This document shows positions 11,351-46,020 of a DNA stretch of 64,000 nucleotides, one piece after another. The stretch is from Pohlia nutans (Eukaryota; Streptophyta; Bryopsida; Bryales; Mniaceae). The first letter of the stretch is position 1. Every line of letters begins with the position of its first letter. Made by a program: the position numbers and the translations under genes. The notes under the pieces were generated by a model. The model searched no databases. It was given only the letters and a program-made list of their open reading frames with translations, and was not told the DNA's origin. Where the stretch lies: positions 18,284,001 through 18,348,000 of the forward strand of contig CM040090.1 of the NCBI GenBank assembly GCA_022496805.1, given 5' to 3'.

Positions 11351-11943
11351 GTTCACAATTATTCCACTTCCATTTGACCGTATGTGAGACGCCAATTCGG
11401 CACTTGGTGTCCATAATGGTTTATTTATTTATTTAATTTAATTTATATGTGTTTGTTATTCTAAAACAAAAAATTAGTAGAGATAGTAGAATTTAGAATG
11501 GAATAACTAAATATATATTTTTAAATATATTTTAAGTTAATTGGTAATAATATCATGATATACGTGATTTTCTATGTAAAAACTGTTATTCCTCTCAACA
11601 ATGGTCAAATTTGCAGAAGATCCAAAATATATTATATTAAGAGGGATGCCTCTAATACCACGATATAATAGAAGTTGGGATATAGAAGGAAGTAGAAACT
11701 AAGTACTACTTTAGTCAAACTGTGAGTGTGTCAGTAAATTATATGAAAATTATAGTATTAAGAATTTCAAAATTAAAATGCACTCTTAAAGTATTTTACT
11801 CTTAAAAAGACTTTAAAAAAAATTATAAATTTTTTCAGTAATTCGTCAATATATATTTTAGATCCTATACAAAGTGACCAGGATTTAGAAAATTGTAAAA
11901 CAATAATTGAAGGACTCTAAAATTATTACAAAAATTAAGAAAG
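11351..11943. other. AT-rich DNA, no gene
   Basis: No coding frame or repeat of note. It forms the left flank of element D and ends in the GAAAG target duplication (11939-11943). Confidence 0.6.
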
Positions 11944-12274
11944 TGTTACGGACACGGAAATACACACAATAAATCTAAACAAGAAGTTCAGAGAGAACAT
12001 GCAAGAACTAGATTGATCAGATGAGTACACAAACAACACCAAGAGAGGTGAGCTAGAGCTCTAAGAAATGCGTTGTCGAGACTGAAGAACCCTTCAGCCT
12101 CGACTCCTATATATACTACTGGATAGGAAGCTTCTCGAGCAGCTTCTTAGAATCTATTAGAATATACTAAGAATATTCTAAGAATCTTACAGAACATTCT
12201 AAAAGAATCTTTAAAGAATATTCTATAGAATCTTCAAGGAATCTTCTAGAAGTTTCTAATGTATGTCCGTGACA
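11944..12274 (-). repeat. element D 3' LTR
   Basis: 331 bp, matching 17809-18139 except at two sites (AACATTCT versus AACCTTCT; ATTCTAT versus ATTCGAT). It carries the same TATA box (around 12108-12115) and GAAnnTTC array as the 5' LTR. Confidence 0.97.
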
Positions 12275-12290
12275 TCACCTCTCCTTCTAG
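12275..12290 (-). other. element D polypurine tract
   Basis: On the minus strand AGAAGGAGAGGTGA directly precedes the 3' LTR, the expected place for the plus-strand primer. Confidence 0.75.
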
Positions 12291-12324: not shown

Positions 12325-12678
12325 TCAATACCATCGTAAAAAAATGAAGATTTGTCGCATGACGTCTGCAATGAACTCCAATTGTTGTTCACGAGGTAGG
12401 TGGTTCATTGGTCCTTGAAGCCAACGGTAGTGGCCTACGCCTTCCACTTCTGACCAAGCATGAACTTCCGTGTCTTCATTGTGAAATTGTCCTGCAAACA
12501 CGCCTTCTGGTAGACCATTGAAAGCAGGCTCTACCTCGAATACAATCACCAGCGATCGGTTGCTTGGTATTCTTCGTCGTCGTCGTGGTACAGGCGGTTC
12601 TTCATCTCGGGGTCGCCTTCGTGGGTTCGTTGGTTGAGATGACACGACTGGTATACTATCTATCTCTTGACTATCCAT
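12325..12678 (-). CDS. extra ORF of element D, unknown function
   Basis: An intact 117-aa frame with its own ATG lies between the integrase and the 3' LTR, where chromoviruses normally encode nothing. The N-terminal third is Ser/Pro-rich and then strongly basic (PRRRPRDEEPPVPRRRRRIP), like a nuclear-localisation or RNA-binding segment. The rest is mixed, with several aromatic residues (HAWSEVEGVGHYRWLQG). No known domain was recognised. It is the only D frame without a lesion, which may be chance given its length. Confidence 0.45.
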   Translation of the reverse strand: MDSQEIDSIPVVSSQPTNPRRRPRDEEPPVPRRRRRIPSNRSLVIVFEVEPAFNGLPEGVFAGQFHNEDTEVHAWSEVEGVGHYRWLQGPMNHLPREQQLEFIADVMRQIFIFLRWY

Positions 12679-12815: not shown

Positions 12816-14111
12816 TCATCGAGATGGCTTCGGTTTATCAGGATATCGTTGATGAAATTCCTGTACTTTTTGCGGCGCATTTGTAAGATTTTCGGCTGGC
12901 TCCCACGTTCGCTCATTAATATCGTAGCCGTACCAATGAACAAGATACTCCAACTTGCCCCACCTTCGTCGTGAATCTAGCACCTTTTCGACCTCGTATT
13001 CCTCGTGGTTCTTAATTTCAATGCTAGGTGGCGGACTTTGCACTCTTCCAGGGAAAAATGATTCTCGATAAGGCTCCAATAAAGAGACATGAAAGACTGG
13101 ATGTACCTTCATAACGGCTGGTAACTCCAAACGGTAAGCCACGGGATTGATTTGCTTCTGGACGACAAATGGTCCTAATCTGCGGTAGTCCAGCTTATCA
13201 CACGGTCGTTTAGTCTTGATATTCCGTCGGAGAAGCCATACTTTATCTCCAATCTTGAAAGTAGGTGCCTCATTCCAGAATTTATCTGCGGTCCTCTTGT
13301 AAGATTCTTGGGCGGTCCGTAATTGAAGTTTCAACGTAGCTTGAAGTTCCGACAGCTGCTTCGCAAAGCCTTCTGCTGCCGGGTTGTTATTTGCTACTGG
13401 ATTTAACAAATCAAGCTTTGGATGGTATCCATAATTGGCAAAAAACGGTGTTTGTTGAGTCGACGCATGAAGGGTGTTGTTGTAAGCAAACTCGGCAAAC
13501 GGTAGATACTTGGTCCAATTGTCTTGCTGATAGTTGATGATGCAACGTAGATACTGCTCCAAGACTTGATTCACCCGTTCTGTCTGACCGTCGGTTTGAG
13601 GATGAAAAGCCGAAGAAAGCTTGATATCCACCTTCAATATCTCAAAAAGAGATCTCCAGAACTTGGAAACAAACTGAGTTCCTCGATCCGATACAATATC
13701 ATCTGGCAAACCATGATAACGATATACATTATCAAGAAAGAATCTTGCTGTGTCCTCACTTGACGATGTCTTCTTGCAAGGAATAAAGTGCGCCATCTTT
13801 GTGAGCCGATCCACCACAACAAAGATGCTGTCGAACGAGTTTGAAGGCGGCAGGTCCGTAATGAAGTCCATGGAAACTGAAGACCATGGTCGATGCGGAA
13901 TAGGCAATGGCTGTAGAAGTCCATAGGGGCGATGCCTAGGGTTCTTGGACCTTGAACAAATATCACAAGAGAGGACAAACTCCTTCACATCCTTCCACAT
14001 TTGGGGCCACCAAAAGTCTCGCGAAATAAGCTCCAATGTCTTGTTGTATCCAAAATGACCTGCTGCTGGAAAGTCGTGGCGAGATTGGAGAACTTGAAGT
14101 CGTGTTGGTCC
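12816..14111 (-). CDS. element D integrase with C-terminal chromodomain
   Basis: Ty3/gypsy integrase: zinc-binding HHCC end (..LSCDIC at the start; its histidines lie just upstream of the stop at 14112), catalytic core with MDFITDLP, SDRGTQF and HPQTDGQTERVNQ, and the GPF/Y region (RRLGPFVVQ). A chromodomain follows (YEVEKVLD..LEYLVHWYGY..TWEPAENL). The three aromatic positions of the methyl-lysine cage (Y, W, Y) are kept, so it could read methylated histone H3 and steer insertion to heterochromatin. The first ATG is at 14036, but the domain begins earlier. In the native element this is continuous with RT/RNase H and is now split off by a TAG at 14112-14114. Confidence 0.92.
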   Translation of the reverse strand, partial: GPTRLQVLQSRHDFPAAGHFGYNKTLELISRDFWWPQMWKDVKEFVLSCDICSRSKNPRHRPYGLLQPLPIPHRPWSSVSMDFITDLPPSNSFDSIFVVVDRLTKMAHFIPCKKTSSSEDTARFFLDNVYRYHGLPDDIVSDRGTQFVSKFWRSLFEILKVDIKLSSAFHPQTDGQTERVNQVLEQYLRCIINYQQDNWTKYLPFAEFAYNNTLHASTQQTPFFANYGYHPKLDLLNPVANNNPAAEGFAKQLSELQATLKLQLRTAQESYKRTADKFWNEAPTFKIGDKVWLLRRNIKTKRPCDKLDYRRLGPFVVQKQINPVAYRLELPAVMKVHPVFHVSLLEPYRESFFPGRVQSPPPSIEIKNHEEYEVEKVLDSRRRWGKLEYLVHWYGYDINERTWEPAENLTNAPQKVQEFHQRYPDKPKPSR

Positions 14112-15047
14112 CTATGGAATATACAGTCGCTCTTCAAAATACAAAAGATCTCCCTTTACCTTGAACTTGTCATTATCGGCACACTTCTTGATCTCAAGAG
14201 CTACAAAATCTTCAATTGTCGCAGTACGTACCTGGTTGAGGAAGTCCGCATCAATTGGTACGACAGCAGTGCAAATTCTAAAATGCTCCGATTTCAACAA
14301 TGTAGCGCATTGTTGATCAAACGCTGCTTCTCCAGCTTTAGGCGCCATATACAATCTCCTCGATAATGCATCGAATAGTCCTTGTTGCTTTCCAGGCCGA
14401 TAGGTGATAACAAAGTCAAATCGCGACAACGACATATTCCACCGAGCTTGACGTCGATTCAGGACTCGAGCCGACATGAAGTACTCTAAATTTTTGTGAT
14501 CCGTATATACGGTCACCGGATGCGCAGCGCCTTCGAGAAAGTGTCGCCACTCTTGGAAAGAATCCACTATAGCAAGGAGTTCCTTATCGTGGATTTCGTA
14601 GTTGATTTCAGCGGCAGAGAACTTCCGAGAATAAAACGCAACTGGATGGAGCTTACTGTCTTCGCCCATCTGTGAAAAAACGGCTCCCAAAGCAAAATCC
14701 GAAGCATCAGTTTCCAAATAGAAGGCCTTTGCAAAGTCAGGGTGTACCAAGATTGGAGCCGTAGTAAACGTCGTCTTAAGATCTTGGAATGCCTTTTTTG
14801 CTTGAGGTCCCCATTCGAGCTTGTCCTTACAAGTCAATCGAGTGAGTGGAGCAGCGACTCGAGAATAATTCTTGATGAAGATCCGATAGAAGTTAGCAAA
14901 GCCAAGAAAACATTGTACGTCTCTAACTGTCTTCGGAACCTCCCAGGATACAATTGCTTCCACCTTCTTGGGGTCCATCTTCAAGCCATCCGTAGTTGCA
15001 ACGAACCCTAGAAATTCCATCTCCGTTTGGTGGAATAGACATTTTCC
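14112..15047 (-). pseudogene. element D RNase H and 5' part of integrase zinc finger
   Basis: The frame opens with [16 protein letters not shown] (RT thumb) and continues through RNase H (LETDASDFALGAVFSQ, HDKELLAIV, TDHKNLEYF) to a TAG at 14112-14114. Relative to the RT frame it is displaced by one base. The break lies in an A run near 15044 on the minus strand, where the expected KLEKCLF-type segment changes frame. Confidence 0.88.
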
Positions 15048-16372
15048 AACTTCGCGTAGAGTCCTCGTTCTCGTAGTTTCTCAAGAACCAAACGAACATG
15101 CTTCTTGTGTTCTTCTTCGTTCTTCGAAAATATCAGAATGTCATCGAGATAGATGACAACAAAGTCGTCAAGGTGCTCCCGAAAAATGTCATTCATCATA
15201 TGTTGGAAAACAGCCGGAGCATTGGTAAGGCCAAAATGCATGACGTTATATTCAAAATGGCCATACCTTGTACGGAAAGCTGTCTTCCACTCGTCTCCTT
15301 CCTTGATTCGTACGAGGTTGTAAGCTCCCCTAAGATCAATTTTCGTAAAGATCTCTGCACGTCCGAGCTGCTCCAAGAGACCAGAAATCAAAGGTAACGG
15401 ATAACGGTTTTTCTTAGTTATCTTATTGAGGCCTCGATAGTCCACGCACATTCGTAGAGAGCCATCCTTCTTTTTCACGAACAAAATCGGTGCCCCAGCT
15501 GACGACTTTGAGTGACGAATAAAATTCTTGGCTAGATTTTCATCAATATACTTCCGCAATTCTGCCAACTCTATTTGCGATAAGTTGTAGATTGGGCCAA
15601 AAGGTGGTTGCATTCCTTCATGAAGATCTATAGCACAGTCGTAGGGTCGATGTTTTGGTAGCATGTCAGCATTTTTCTTTTCAAAGACATCTTTGAATCC
15701 TTCATACTGCTTTGGAATAACGAAAGTTGGAGTCGCATTTTTACGAGTCGGAGTAGCAAAGATGACAAAAGGTGTATTTTGCTTGGCTTCCTTCATAAAA
15801 GCCCTTGCACCTATAAACAAAGGTTTGTTTCTAGACATTGTCTTGGCAGATTCCACCTTCAAGGAGTTTGTTGGAAATGTTACTTTTCGCAACTTCCAAT
15901 CTATTAATGGATTATATCTATCAAGCCAAGATAGTCTCAAAATGACAGGACATGAAGGGGTCTTGATAACATTAAACACAATGTTGCTCTCATGGTTTTC
16001 AAGACGTATCTTCAACGGTTTAGTTTCATGGATAACATTGCCCGAAGACAATGGTCGTCCGTCTATGACCTCTACATGGACAGGCTTTGGTTTCTTCACA
16101 AGAGGAATATTGTGAAGCTTGGTAAACTCTTCATCTATGAAGCAAGCAGATGCACCCGAGTCTAATAAAGCATTAACTTGAAGTTTTTGAATACCAAAAT
16201 GTAAAGGTACCATAAAACAATCTGAAGGTTGAGCTGAGAGGAAGGAACCTGGATTATTTTTGGATGTTGAGATGTCCAGCCGCACAGTCCCTATTGTGGC
16301 TGGGCGTCCTCGTTTTCCTGTATGCTTGTACTCCTCAGTCTTGTTGTTTGAGTCTTCTGTTTCTTCGAACAA
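15008..16372 (-). CDS. element D protease and reverse transcriptase
   Basis: The protease motif [11 protein letters not shown] is near residue 65, followed by a linker and then the Ty3/gypsy reverse transcriptase: [36 protein letters not shown], the YLDD catalytic box in [18 protein letters not shown]. The frame ends shortly after YLDD because of a frameshift. Its start overlaps the end of gag by 82 nt in the -1 frame, consistent with gag-pol expression by -1 ribosomal frameshifting in the ancestral element (inference). Confidence 0.92.
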
Positions 16373-17340
16373 TTTGTAGCTTTATGGCCTGCCTCTCCAC
16401 AATATAAGCACAAGTTTTGTTCAAACCGTCGCTTCTTTTCTTCAGCTGTGAGGGGCTTGAAACGTACCGCATCAATTTGCATAGGTTCAGGACCTGTGGA
16501 GTGATTTTCTGGACCTTTTGAAAATACAGCAAATGCTCCCTCATTTCTCCAACCTGATCGTCTTTCTTATCGTAATTCAAAAAGGCGGTTGTCACAAATA
16601 ATTGCCTGACATATAAGTTCTTCTAAAGTATCCACTTTAGGCATAGTGATCAACAAATTTTTAACATCATCTCTCAGTCCATATCGAAATCGTGTCATAA
16701 ACGCCTTATCGTTCCAATCAAGATCACATGTAAGTTGTTGGAATTCTGCAGCATAGATTGCAGCAGAACGTGATCCTTGTCGCAAATTTTGTATCTTTAT
16801 TTCAGCTACTCCTTCTCGATCGCTATCTCCAAATGCAGCAGTAAATCTTTCCATGAAAGCCTCTAGGTTATAGAGTATTGGAGAATCCTTCTCCAATAGC
16901 GGAGCAAACCAAGAGCGAGCATTTCCTGATAAAAGAGTACCTATGAAAGCAACTTGAGTAAATCCATCTGGATAACGAGAAGGATATAGGCGTAGATAAA
17001 GCCGTACTTGTTGCACAAAACCTCGGAAATTGGTTCTTGTTCCATCAAACTTGTCTGGCATACTTGCTTTTGGTTCTTTTGTACTAGGCCTTGAATTGTC
17101 TATTAGGGTCGTGGGTGATACATGTCTTGCTTCTCTTAATCGAACAAGCTCTTGTTGTAGGCCGTGAATTTCTCGTCTAGCTTCTTCAGTCATTGGATCA
17201 ATTTGAGGCTCTTTACTTGGATTGCGAAGAAATGCGATCTCCTCCCGCACACTATTCATAAGAGCTTGAAGATCTGCAAGAGTTGCCACTCTATTTTCTA
17301 TTTGTGGCGATGCACTATCCATGGCCTGATTTATTTCCAT
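16291..17340 (-). pseudogene. element D gag (capsid and zinc knuckle)
   Basis: ATG at 17340. A predicted helical N-terminus (about residues 15-75) leads into the capsid domain (MPDKFDGTRTNFRGFVQQVR .. LRQGSRSAAIYAAEFQQL .. LDWNDKAFMTRFRYGL), the form typical of Tcn1/sushi-type elements. One in-frame TAA (16567-16569) interrupts the frame, which then continues to the CCHC zinc knuckle [14 protein letters not shown] and stops at 16291. Gag packages the RNA in cytoplasmic particles; the TAA separates capsid from the nucleic-acid-binding knuckle. Confidence 0.88.
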
Positions 17341-17793
17341 ATTAAGGAGATAAATCGATTGAAATTTAGAAAAGAAAAAGTTGTTAAATCTTTGGAGAAG
17401 ATGGTAACACTATCAATTACTAAAACTAATTTGGAGAAAAGAGAAAATAAAACACTAAAAAATCTCAGCTTTAGAGGAGGGTAATCCACGCTCTATCAAG
17501 AAGGCAAGATTCTGAAATCGATGTTAATAGTCCTTTCTATTAGCTTTGCTAAAAAGAAGGAATTAATACCAATCCAAGGGAGACTAATCTGCAACCCTTA
17601 GAACGCTTAAGTATCTTTAAAGGAAGGAGTAGTCCACTCTCTGCCTTTGAAAAACTAAGCTCTGATATTGAAATTGAGAAAATATCAGTTTAGAGGAAAG
17701 TAATCCGCAACCTCTAAAGCGCTAGAATACCTTCAAGAAGAGGGGTGATCCGCTCTCAAGCAAGAAGGATCCAGCTCTGATATTAAGATGAAA
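17341..17793 (-). other. element D 5' leader with diverged repeats
   Basis: Untranslated leader. Short diverged repeats of the type GTAATCC(A/G)C..CTCT and AAG(CT)CTCTGATATT recur at about 17478, 17580, 17640, 17700 and 17745. No coding frame. Confidence 0.5.
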
Positions 17794-17806
17794 TCAGTCT
17801 CGACAA
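17794..17806 (-). other. element D primer-binding site, self-complementary type
   Basis: On the minus strand the LTR end is followed by GT and then TTGTCGAGACTGA. No tRNA 3' end (TGG start) is present. The same 13 nt, inverted, occur inside the LTR at 17938-17950, about 30 nt after the start of the TATA box, where the transcript should begin. This is the arrangement of self-priming elements such as Tf1 and sushi-ichi, in which the RNA 5' end folds back on the primer site. Confidence 0.65.
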
Positions 17807-17808
17807 AC

Positions 17809-18139
17809 TGTTACGGACACGGAAATACACACAATAAATCTAAACAAGAAGTTCAGAGAGAACATGCAAGAACTAGATTGATCAGATGAGTACACAAACA
17901 ACACCAAGAGAGGTGAGCTAGAGCTCTAAGAAATGCGTTGTCGAGACTGAAGAACCCTTCAGCCTCGACTCCTATATATACTACTGGATAGGAAGCTTCT
18001 CGAGCAGCTTCTTAGAATCTATTAGAATATACTAAGAATATTCTAAGAATCTTACAGAACCTTCTAAAAGAATCTTTAAAGAATATTCGATAGAATCTTC
18101 AAGGAATCTTCTAGAAGTTTCTAATGTATGTCCGTGACA
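17809..18139 (-). repeat. element D 5' LTR
   Basis: 331 bp with TG...CA ends. On the minus strand it holds the heat-shock-type array (18036-18121), the TATA box (17973-17980), the predicted start region (about 17950) and then R/U5. Confidence 0.97.
17973..18121 (-). promoter_or_regulatory. element D promoter: TATA box with heat-shock-element array
   Basis: A TATATATAGG box reads on the minus strand at 17972-17980. Upstream of it are six GAAnnTTC blocks at 18036, 18057, 18081, 18093, 18104 and 18114 (first bases on the plus strand). The distal part, GAAACTTCTAGAAGATTC on the minus strand (18104-18121), is a perfect four-unit nGAAnnTTCn heat-shock element. Heat-shock-factor sites of this kind drive the heat-activated ONSEN copia element of Arabidopsis. 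Heat induction of D is inference. Confidence 0.7.
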
Positions 18140-19454
18140 GAAAGATGTTTAGAGCACCTTATACGATGTGATAAAATTTGTAGATTAATGGAGTTAGTTA
18201 GTTCTCTAATCTAAAAGGAAGGAGAACTTACCGTCATTCGACCAAACGGTCAAATTTACGGGCATTCCTAAGACTATCTAGGAGCTCAAATCGAGTGTTT
18301 CTAAATGCTATTTCACTTATTTGAACCTCAAGAATTCCAATAATAAAGCCAAGTAAGTCAAAAATATTTTTTATCAAAAGATGTAAATTTGGCTTATAAC
18401 CCTATCAAGGTAAAATGGAAGTTCCACCATTTTGATCAAAGAATTTTGGCCTTCTAAAACCATTAATGAAGTTAAATTTTGAATTAGAGCTATATTTAGT
18501 ATGTTATTAAGGTCCAACATTAAATAAGGATAAAAACGAACATACCATTGACTCCCTTCGGCATTTGGCCATCAGCCAGTCATATTATTGGAGGGGTTGA
18601 TGGAAGGAGCTAAATAATCTCAATTTTATTATCTAAATACATTCACAAATAAATTAGTCTCTAGAATTAGTAAAACAAAAGTTAGTCAAAATAGTTGTAG
18701 AATAAAACAATTTTTATTAGTATAGAATAGAAGATAAAACGAAAAGATTTATTAAAACGGCATAGGGCCTCACATAATGGATGGTACTAATTGTCTCTAC
18801 AATTATATATATATATATATATACATATATATTATTAAAATTAGTTGTAGAATAAACTGACTGTAACTGACAATTTTCTGACTGTAACTATCTTGTAAAG
18901 ATATCTGTTTCACTAAATAGGTTAAATCTTGTTATTGGTTTTACTAGTTTTATTTTTGAACAACTTATTAATTCAGATGAAATAGAGAAAAAAATCTTTA
19001 AAAAAATAATAGAAAGTAAATTTTTTAATGTTTTAAACTATAACAACTTATTTGGGGTCCCACTAAAAGCAATGAAACTAGACAAGACACTCAAAGCAAA
19101 ATGATACTAGTTTATATATATACTACCAAGACACTCAGAGGAGAATGAGACTAGTTCTTATATATATATACTACGAAGACACTTCCCACAGCCGATTATG
19201 ATATAATGACCTATAAAAGTTTGCAGTTTGAAATTTGGATTTTGAATCTTCAAAGGTCTTAATGTTCTATGTGGATTAAGGACAAATCTTTTGTTTTGCT
19301 AGATGATTTGTTAATACTGCACAACATCTAATTAAGTACTCTTACAAATGTCTTATAACAAAGATCTTGAAGATTTAAAATTGATTTCACTAGAACTAGG
19401 TAGATATAAACTTTGGTCTTCTTTTTAAGGCCGGCTTGAAGAATGAGTCAGTTC
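18140..19454. other. AT-rich DNA, no gene
   Basis: Contains a (TA)n run at about 18806-18830 and a short tandem repeat at 19083-19184. Otherwise nothing recognisable. Confidence 0.6.
19083..19184. repeat. short tandem duplication with TA-rich core
   Basis: Two units of about 50 bp, each with AAGACACTC, ATGA.ACTAGTT and a TATATATATACTAC run. Confidence 0.8.
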
Positions 19455-45702: not shown

Positions 45703-46020
45703 TGTTGAAGTAGGATGATTGCGTGGGCTGAAGTTGCTCATAGCCATGCGCATTAGCTAGAGTAGATGATGCGAATGAGCTAGACTTGCAACTAGAGAAG
45801 TGGTACTAGTTAGAAGTAAAGAGAATTGGGTCTCCCAAGTGATATGGGCTGATCCTAGTGTACTAGGAGTGGAGTATGGGCTGATGTCCCATATGGATTG
45901 CCAAGGGGACTCCCTTGGGTGTGCTACTTAAGAGGGGCAGCCCATGAGTAAAGATCATCTCTTTCCTATGCATTCCAAGTGTTTGTGTGAGGCTTTGGCA
46001 TTCTAATCTAACCTTCAATA
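45703..46020 (+). repeat. element B 5' LTR
   Basis: 318 bp, identical by eye to 51052-51369. Confidence 0.97.

Follow-up and report, generated by a model that had tools for sequence, protein, structure and literature searches.

How does an LTR retrotransposon start reverse transcription when the site next to its 5' LTR does not begin with TGG? The question is raised by element D, a 6.2-kb Ty3/gypsy LTR retrotransposon found on the minus strand of a 64-kb stretch of Pohlia nutans DNA, all of which is referred to as the window. The 5' LTR (17809..18139; all features of D are given for the minus strand) and the 3' LTR (11944..12274) are both 331 bp long (TGTCAC...GTAACA) and are flanked by the target site duplication CTTTC, at 18140..18144 on the 5' side and at 11939..11943 on the 3' side. 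Since the two LTRs differ at only 2 of 331 positions, the copy is young. The primer binding site (PBS) and the leader (17341..17808) precede a gag ORF (16567..17340; Retrotrans_gag, DUF4939), followed by pol pieces for protease and reverse transcriptase (15008..16372), for RNase H (14112..15020) and for integrase, SH3_Tf2-1 and a chromodomain with Y/W/Y aromatic residues (12816..14036). Stops and frame changes break the coding region into several ORFs. Another, short ORF (12325-12678, minus strand; start MDSQEID), roughly 117 codons in length, lies in the interval between integrase and 3' LTR, and a likely polypurine tract, AGAAGGAGAGG, can be read from the sequence at 12278..12288, ahead of the 3' LTR.

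The original prediction held that D is self-primed, and placed a 13-nt site, TTGTCGAGACTGA, at 17794-17806, two bases past the 5' LTR, with its exact inverse inside the LTR at 17938-17950. Both were re-found at these positions, the site being separated from the LTR by the spacer GT. A second copy of the inverse is present in the 3' LTR (12073-12085), and there is no further occurrence in the window. In the 5' LTR the inverse starts 30 nt downstream of the first T of the TATA box TATATATA (17973..17980). When Markov-random LTRs were compared with the 20 nt that follow the 5' LTR, 1 of 20,000 gave an inverse match of 13 nt and 4 of 20,000 gave one of 12 nt, while the longest match of 560 internal 20-nt windows to the real D LTR was at most 9 nt. 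A chance origin of the match was rejected on the basis of these controls, together with the shuffled-PBS control given below. The position of the match also agrees with the expected start of transcription.

The genome (697,796,988 bases in 332 contigs) was searched with LTR, RT and gag queries, and the best-scored places of each search were considered. We examined 49 loci for the LTR-PBS junction, 24 found via the D LTR and 25 picked for other families. The junctions were located by a fixed LTR-end motif, so that a differing junction would be missed. Five loci (L004, L005, L006, L020 and L024) were left out because they have no such junction with a TATA box upstream; the other 44 enter the pairing counts. 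These 44 could be sub-divided into six sequence types, namely D (19 loci, several of which come from tandem arrays), fam2 (6), fam3 (2), fam4 (6), fam5 (8) and fam6 (3). The type representatives share 39-77% identity in R/U5, as compared to about 36% for shuffled sequence. The PBS core is TTGTCGAGACT in D and fam5, TTGACGAGAGT in fam2, TTGAAGAGAGT in fam3, TTGACGAGACT in fam4 and TTGCTAATAC in fam6. A further 30 RT-centred loci (L025-L054) stop short of R and allow the PBS alone to be read, which was possible in 27: 25 carry TTGTCGAGACTGATT, one is altered at position 12 and one at position 3. The pattern ACAGTTTGSCGAGNNTGA had no match across the genome.

In all six types the site behind the LTR complements the element's own LTR, 30-34 nt past the TATA box. 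When, for each locus, the 11-mer with the highest score was taken from a range of 27-35 nt downstream of a TATA box, the complementarity over 11 nt was complete in 36 of the 44 loci and amounted to 10 in five, 9 in two and 7 in one. Loss of complementarity among the copies, which the original prediction had named as evidence against itself, is seen to a limited extent: the eight incomplete loci (four of fam4, one of fam5 and all three of fam6) have 1 to 4 mismatches, but 36 of 44 are full. One of them, L061 (scored 10), pairs fully if the register shifts by one base, and its register was set by hand for the position profile. Because the best register is picked in the scoring, the same procedure was rerun with shuffled PBS 11-mers. 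A score of 11 was then reached in 0 of 9000 cases and a score of 10 in 2 of 9000; one of the 49 loci, in which the junction motif had no TATA box, scored 0 in this control. Other 11-mers from downstream of the LTR reached a maximum of 9 among 1764.

The position profile has a sharp border. PBS positions 1-11 are paired in 41-44 of the 44 loci, whereas position 12 is paired in 31, position 13 in 30, position 14 in 7 and position 15 in none; the base preceding position 1 is paired in 18. As the pairing falls beyond position 11, the conserved unit is 11 nt long. The originally predicted 13-nt unit thus stands as an exact match in D, but what is conserved across the families is 17796-17806 (the PBS core TTGTCGAGACT) with 17938-17948 (the putative self-primer AGTCTCGACAA). 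From the profile, 11 nt is the most likely length of the primer; in fam6 the pairing covers 10 nt. Transcription had been predicted to start at 17950, 30 nt past the initial T of the TATA box, but the A at 17948 is the likelier +1: it follows a C and lies at a distance of 32 nt from that T, as would befit a normal start site. The primer sequence recurs in the 3' R, within the 3' LTR, at 12073..12083.

The original prediction had also asked whether primer site and R show compensatory change across copies, and they do. Among 21 distinct rows of R plus PBS, 96.5% of the 231 cells pair, a value that was reached in 0 of 500 shuffles. Both sides have changed in 5 of the 11 pairs (10 of 500 shuffles get there) and in 23 cells (0 of 500). 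The covariation score is 0.311, as compared to 0.088 +/- 0.018 for the shuffles, none of the 500 being as high, and a slide of the register by one base brings the pairing down to 44.2% or 32.5%. The clearest covarying case is the multi-position change between fam6 and the remaining types: the fam6 site has little in common with the D site, yet it complements the LTR of fam6 itself. Since the copies share ancestry, the covarying changes represent few events (six types) and not 44, and the shuffles are lenient. The complementarity, its placement with respect to the TATA box and the end of the LTR, the covariation over six types and the 11-nt border are all directly computed.

Could the site nevertheless bind a tRNA or a tRNA fragment, the match in the LTR being coincidental? 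Most of the plant LTR elements surveyed in PMC6317226 do use tRNAs. In the window itself, the site of the other gypsy element starts with TGG. Two copia-type LTR ends, near 46020 (+) and 55718 (-), are followed by GGTTATGGGCCCAC, which resembles a half tRNA-iMet primer site. The absence of a TGG-starting site after the 5' LTR, noted originally for D, extends to all six types (44 loci) and to the 27 of 30 further loci that were readable, and PBS and R change together. On these two grounds tRNA priming of D was rejected, and we regard it as highly improbable. In a comparison with 19 tRNA genes, carrying Lys, Ile, Asp and His labels only, D matched over 5 nt at best and none of the types over more than 6 nt, but in this small sample the two control sites themselves reached only 8 and 5 nt. 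Many tRNA matches with repeated identical scores were seen within 0.46 Mb at C7:8713400-9169097 (Lys, His and Asp in the three that were read), possibly a repeated organelle insertion.

A different explanation starts from the local hairpin in the LTR, which the original prediction had given as a caveat and which turned out to be real and strong. In D it spans 17940..17969 (arms 17957-17969 and 17940-17952), and its 3' arm contains most of the primer. Its energy is -22.7 kcal/mol, and 0 of 1000 shuffles are equally stable. Hairpins are found in fam2 (-20.1 kcal/mol), fam3 (-11.6 and -16.0), fam4 (-16.7 and -21.5) and fam5 (-22.7 to -22.8) as well; in D and fam2 to fam5, 0-6 of 1000 shuffles are as stable (8 of 1000 for fam3 in a separate run). 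We consider this U3/R hairpin a real second feature of five of the types. The LTR stretch might then have been kept for the hairpin, as a promoter palindrome or an RNA element, with the PBS being alike by descent or by chance. The hairpin is strong in 9 of the 10 representative loci on which the hairpin and pretzel tests were run, and its arms change with each other across the representatives. As the primer stretch also pairs with the U3 arm in five of the six types, part of its conservation could stem from that. However, outside fam6 the hairpin takes up 7-9 of the 11 bases of the primer, whereas all 11 pair with the PBS in 36 of 44 loci. Moreover, the corresponding region of fam6 reaches just -2.5 kcal/mol (275 of 1000 shuffles are as stable), and fam6 still keeps a 10-nt complement between PBS and R at an equal distance from the TATA box, so that the hairpin does not explain the complementarity away. 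As the sole cause of the match it was rejected, and there is very little probability left for this explanation.

We conclude that D very probably starts reverse transcription with its own RNA, as Tf1 does. This was the main claim of the original prediction, and it is supported by the exact match, by the complementarity at 44 loci and by the covariation over six types. By analogy with Tf1, the RNA would begin with the A of the CA, about 32 nt from the T that opens the TATA box; its leading 11 nt, AGUCUCGACAA, would fold back on TTGTCGAGACT, two bases past the 5' LTR; RNase H would cut behind nucleotide 11; and the released 11-nt fragment would prime minus-strand DNA. Under self-priming, every new element would receive its PBS as a copy of the primer, which would account for the covariation as well as for the sharpness of the border. 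In Tf1, from yeast, the primer consists of the first 11 bases of the RNA, the cut being made between 11 and 12 (PMC7175516); the pairing in the moss types ends at this very length.

A reading compatible with self-priming is that the family self-primes while the D copy is dead and its site idle in practice. The broken coding region of D speaks for this, but the copy is young by its LTRs, the primer and the PBS of D are intact, and we give this possibility appreciable weight, though clearly less than an even chance. More than 20 of the 93 scored places in the genome search have an open frame of 1188 aa, and we infer from these that the RNA of D could be copied in trans.

The hairpin raises the question how the PBS avoids pairing with the second primer copy. 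A full-length RNA would carry the primer sequence twice, once at the 5' end and once within the 3' LTR. Since the upstream U3 arm is present only beside the 3' copy, only this copy would be locked in the hairpin and the PBS would be free. We therefore propose, tentatively and as a rather unlikely option on present evidence, that the hairpin belongs to the priming mechanism, masking the 3' primer copy and leaving the PBS for the true 5' end. In fam6 the distance between primer and PBS is much shorter (about 80 nt), so this type may do without the hairpin. A hairpin of the D kind, with the primer as its 3' arm, was not found in the open-licence literature searched, in the portions consulted; PMC3601003 speaks in general terms of chromoviruses being primed by a 5' hairpin. 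If true, self-primed retrotransposons would have, in the masking of the 3' copy, a device of which that literature gave no description.

In folds that begin at the predicted start, the mean pairing probability of primer and PBS is 0.928 for D (223-nt piece), 0.886 for fam3 and 0.003 for fam2. For a 249-nt piece of D the primer is unpaired in the MFE structure and paired in the centroid, and the stability of the piece is matched by 35 of 200 shuffles (z -0.92). The pretzel of Tf1 has a second duplex, between the sequence after the PBS and U5 (PMC10085805). A duplex of this kind beats most shuffles in D (7 of 300 do as well), fam2 (14/300), fam4 (20 and 0/300) and fam5 (1, 5 and 4/300), but not in fam3 (75 and 136/300) or fam6 (74/300). 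The pre-PBS duplex is unsupported in D against 300 shuffles, 299 of which do as well; the corresponding numbers are 206-284 of 300 for fam5, 32 for fam2, 38-44 for fam3, 20 and 100 for fam4 and 153 for fam6.

Self-priming itself is a known mechanism, in use among the fungal and fish relatives of D, and it has already been predicted for the majority of the elements of the plant Tcn1 lineage (PMC6317226). The original prediction described plant chromoviruses as tRNA-Met primed, a generalization that omits this lineage, found in mosses and club-mosses; the prediction of self-priming for it was made in the same survey, in 2019. What is added here is the comparative covariation evidence, the 11-nt border and the U3/R hairpin; neither a covariation test nor an 11-nt border was found for plants in those parts of the open-licence literature that were searched. 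A survey-level prediction is thereby turned into a comparative case in one moss genome, with six types, and a young, abundant family becomes available to plant laboratories for testing self-priming.

The relatives of D and its chromodomain fit the plant Tcn1 lineage, that is, D would be a chromodomain Ty3/gypsy element of the Tf1/sushi, plant Tcn1 type. The chromodomain (PF00385, 5.3e-16) is C-terminal to the integrase core and SH3_Tf2-1, and alignment to CDYL/HP1 chromodomains reveals the Y/W/Y cage of the group I aromatic residues (group I as defined in PMC3350952 and PMC6317226). Among the best 120 of 7957 proteins, those nearest to the family pol are unnamed metagenome proteins, with up to 94% identity, and the named relatives are polyproteins of fungi (Berkeleyomyces, Cunninghamella, Powellomyces) and fish. 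The protein of Powellomyces, a chytrid, shares 58-60% identity over RT-integrase with long genome matches that are D-type and fam2-type by frame length. The other gypsy element of the window shares 37% with the D family, over a shorter stretch. In a tree of 22 proteins, a set with no member of the Tekay, Reina, CRM or Galadriel clades, D groups with metagenomic and fungal relatives and stands far from the other gypsy element of the window. A scan of viral contigs with the pol protein of the D family gave no match.

Tf1 and Tf2 of Schizosaccharomyces pombe (and Tj1, Tosmo and Tcry1) have an 11-nt RNA start complementary to the PBS after the 5' LTR, as predicted for D (PMC7175516, PMC10085805, PMC4600332). 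The likeness of Tf1/Tf2 to D includes the chromodomain integrase and, plausibly, one extra duplex on the PBS side. Unlike Tf1, D has a moss as its host, the shuffle comparison favours that one extra duplex in D and not the full three-duplex pretzel, and its primer region also forms the U3/R hairpin, on which the Tf1 descriptions cited are silent in the sections consulted. The plant Tcn1 lineage (PpatensLTR, SM-Tcn1; REXdb chromovirus|Tcn1) shares with D the group I aromatic cage, the relationship to fungal and vertebrate elements and the lack of a tRNA PBS; the host of D is in line with the moss and club-moss hosts of this lineage. For SM-Tcn1, unlike D, the authors of PMC2864245 detected neither a tRNA PBS nor self-priming. 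Self-priming like that of Tf1 and sushi has been proposed for Tcn1 of Cryptococcus neoformans (PMC7175516), which, unlike D, is fungal and is likened to it here by description, not by sequence. Finally, self-priming has been predicted in plants for the TAR copia lineage (Houba, Osr-1; PMC6317226), which, unlike D, belongs to Ty1/copia and not to gypsy.

Five GCGGATTACCC-like motifs are spread over the leader of D (17341-17808), with starts near 17753, 17708, 17637, 17592 and 17489. Counted with at most 3 mismatches and no shuffle control, such motifs number five in D, four in fam2 and in fam5, two in fam4, one in fam3 and none in fam6. They sit in short stems in D and at the loci L055, L059, L060 and L066, and are perhaps packaging or Gag-binding signals. 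The D family also forms head-to-tail arrays, on C81, C110 and C312 and at C17:13364730-13400707 and C2:42356920-42429798, with steps of about 5,962-5,966 bp. These tandem LTR-retrotransposon arrays comprise 13 units on C2 and 7 on C81, and the array on C17 has a break.
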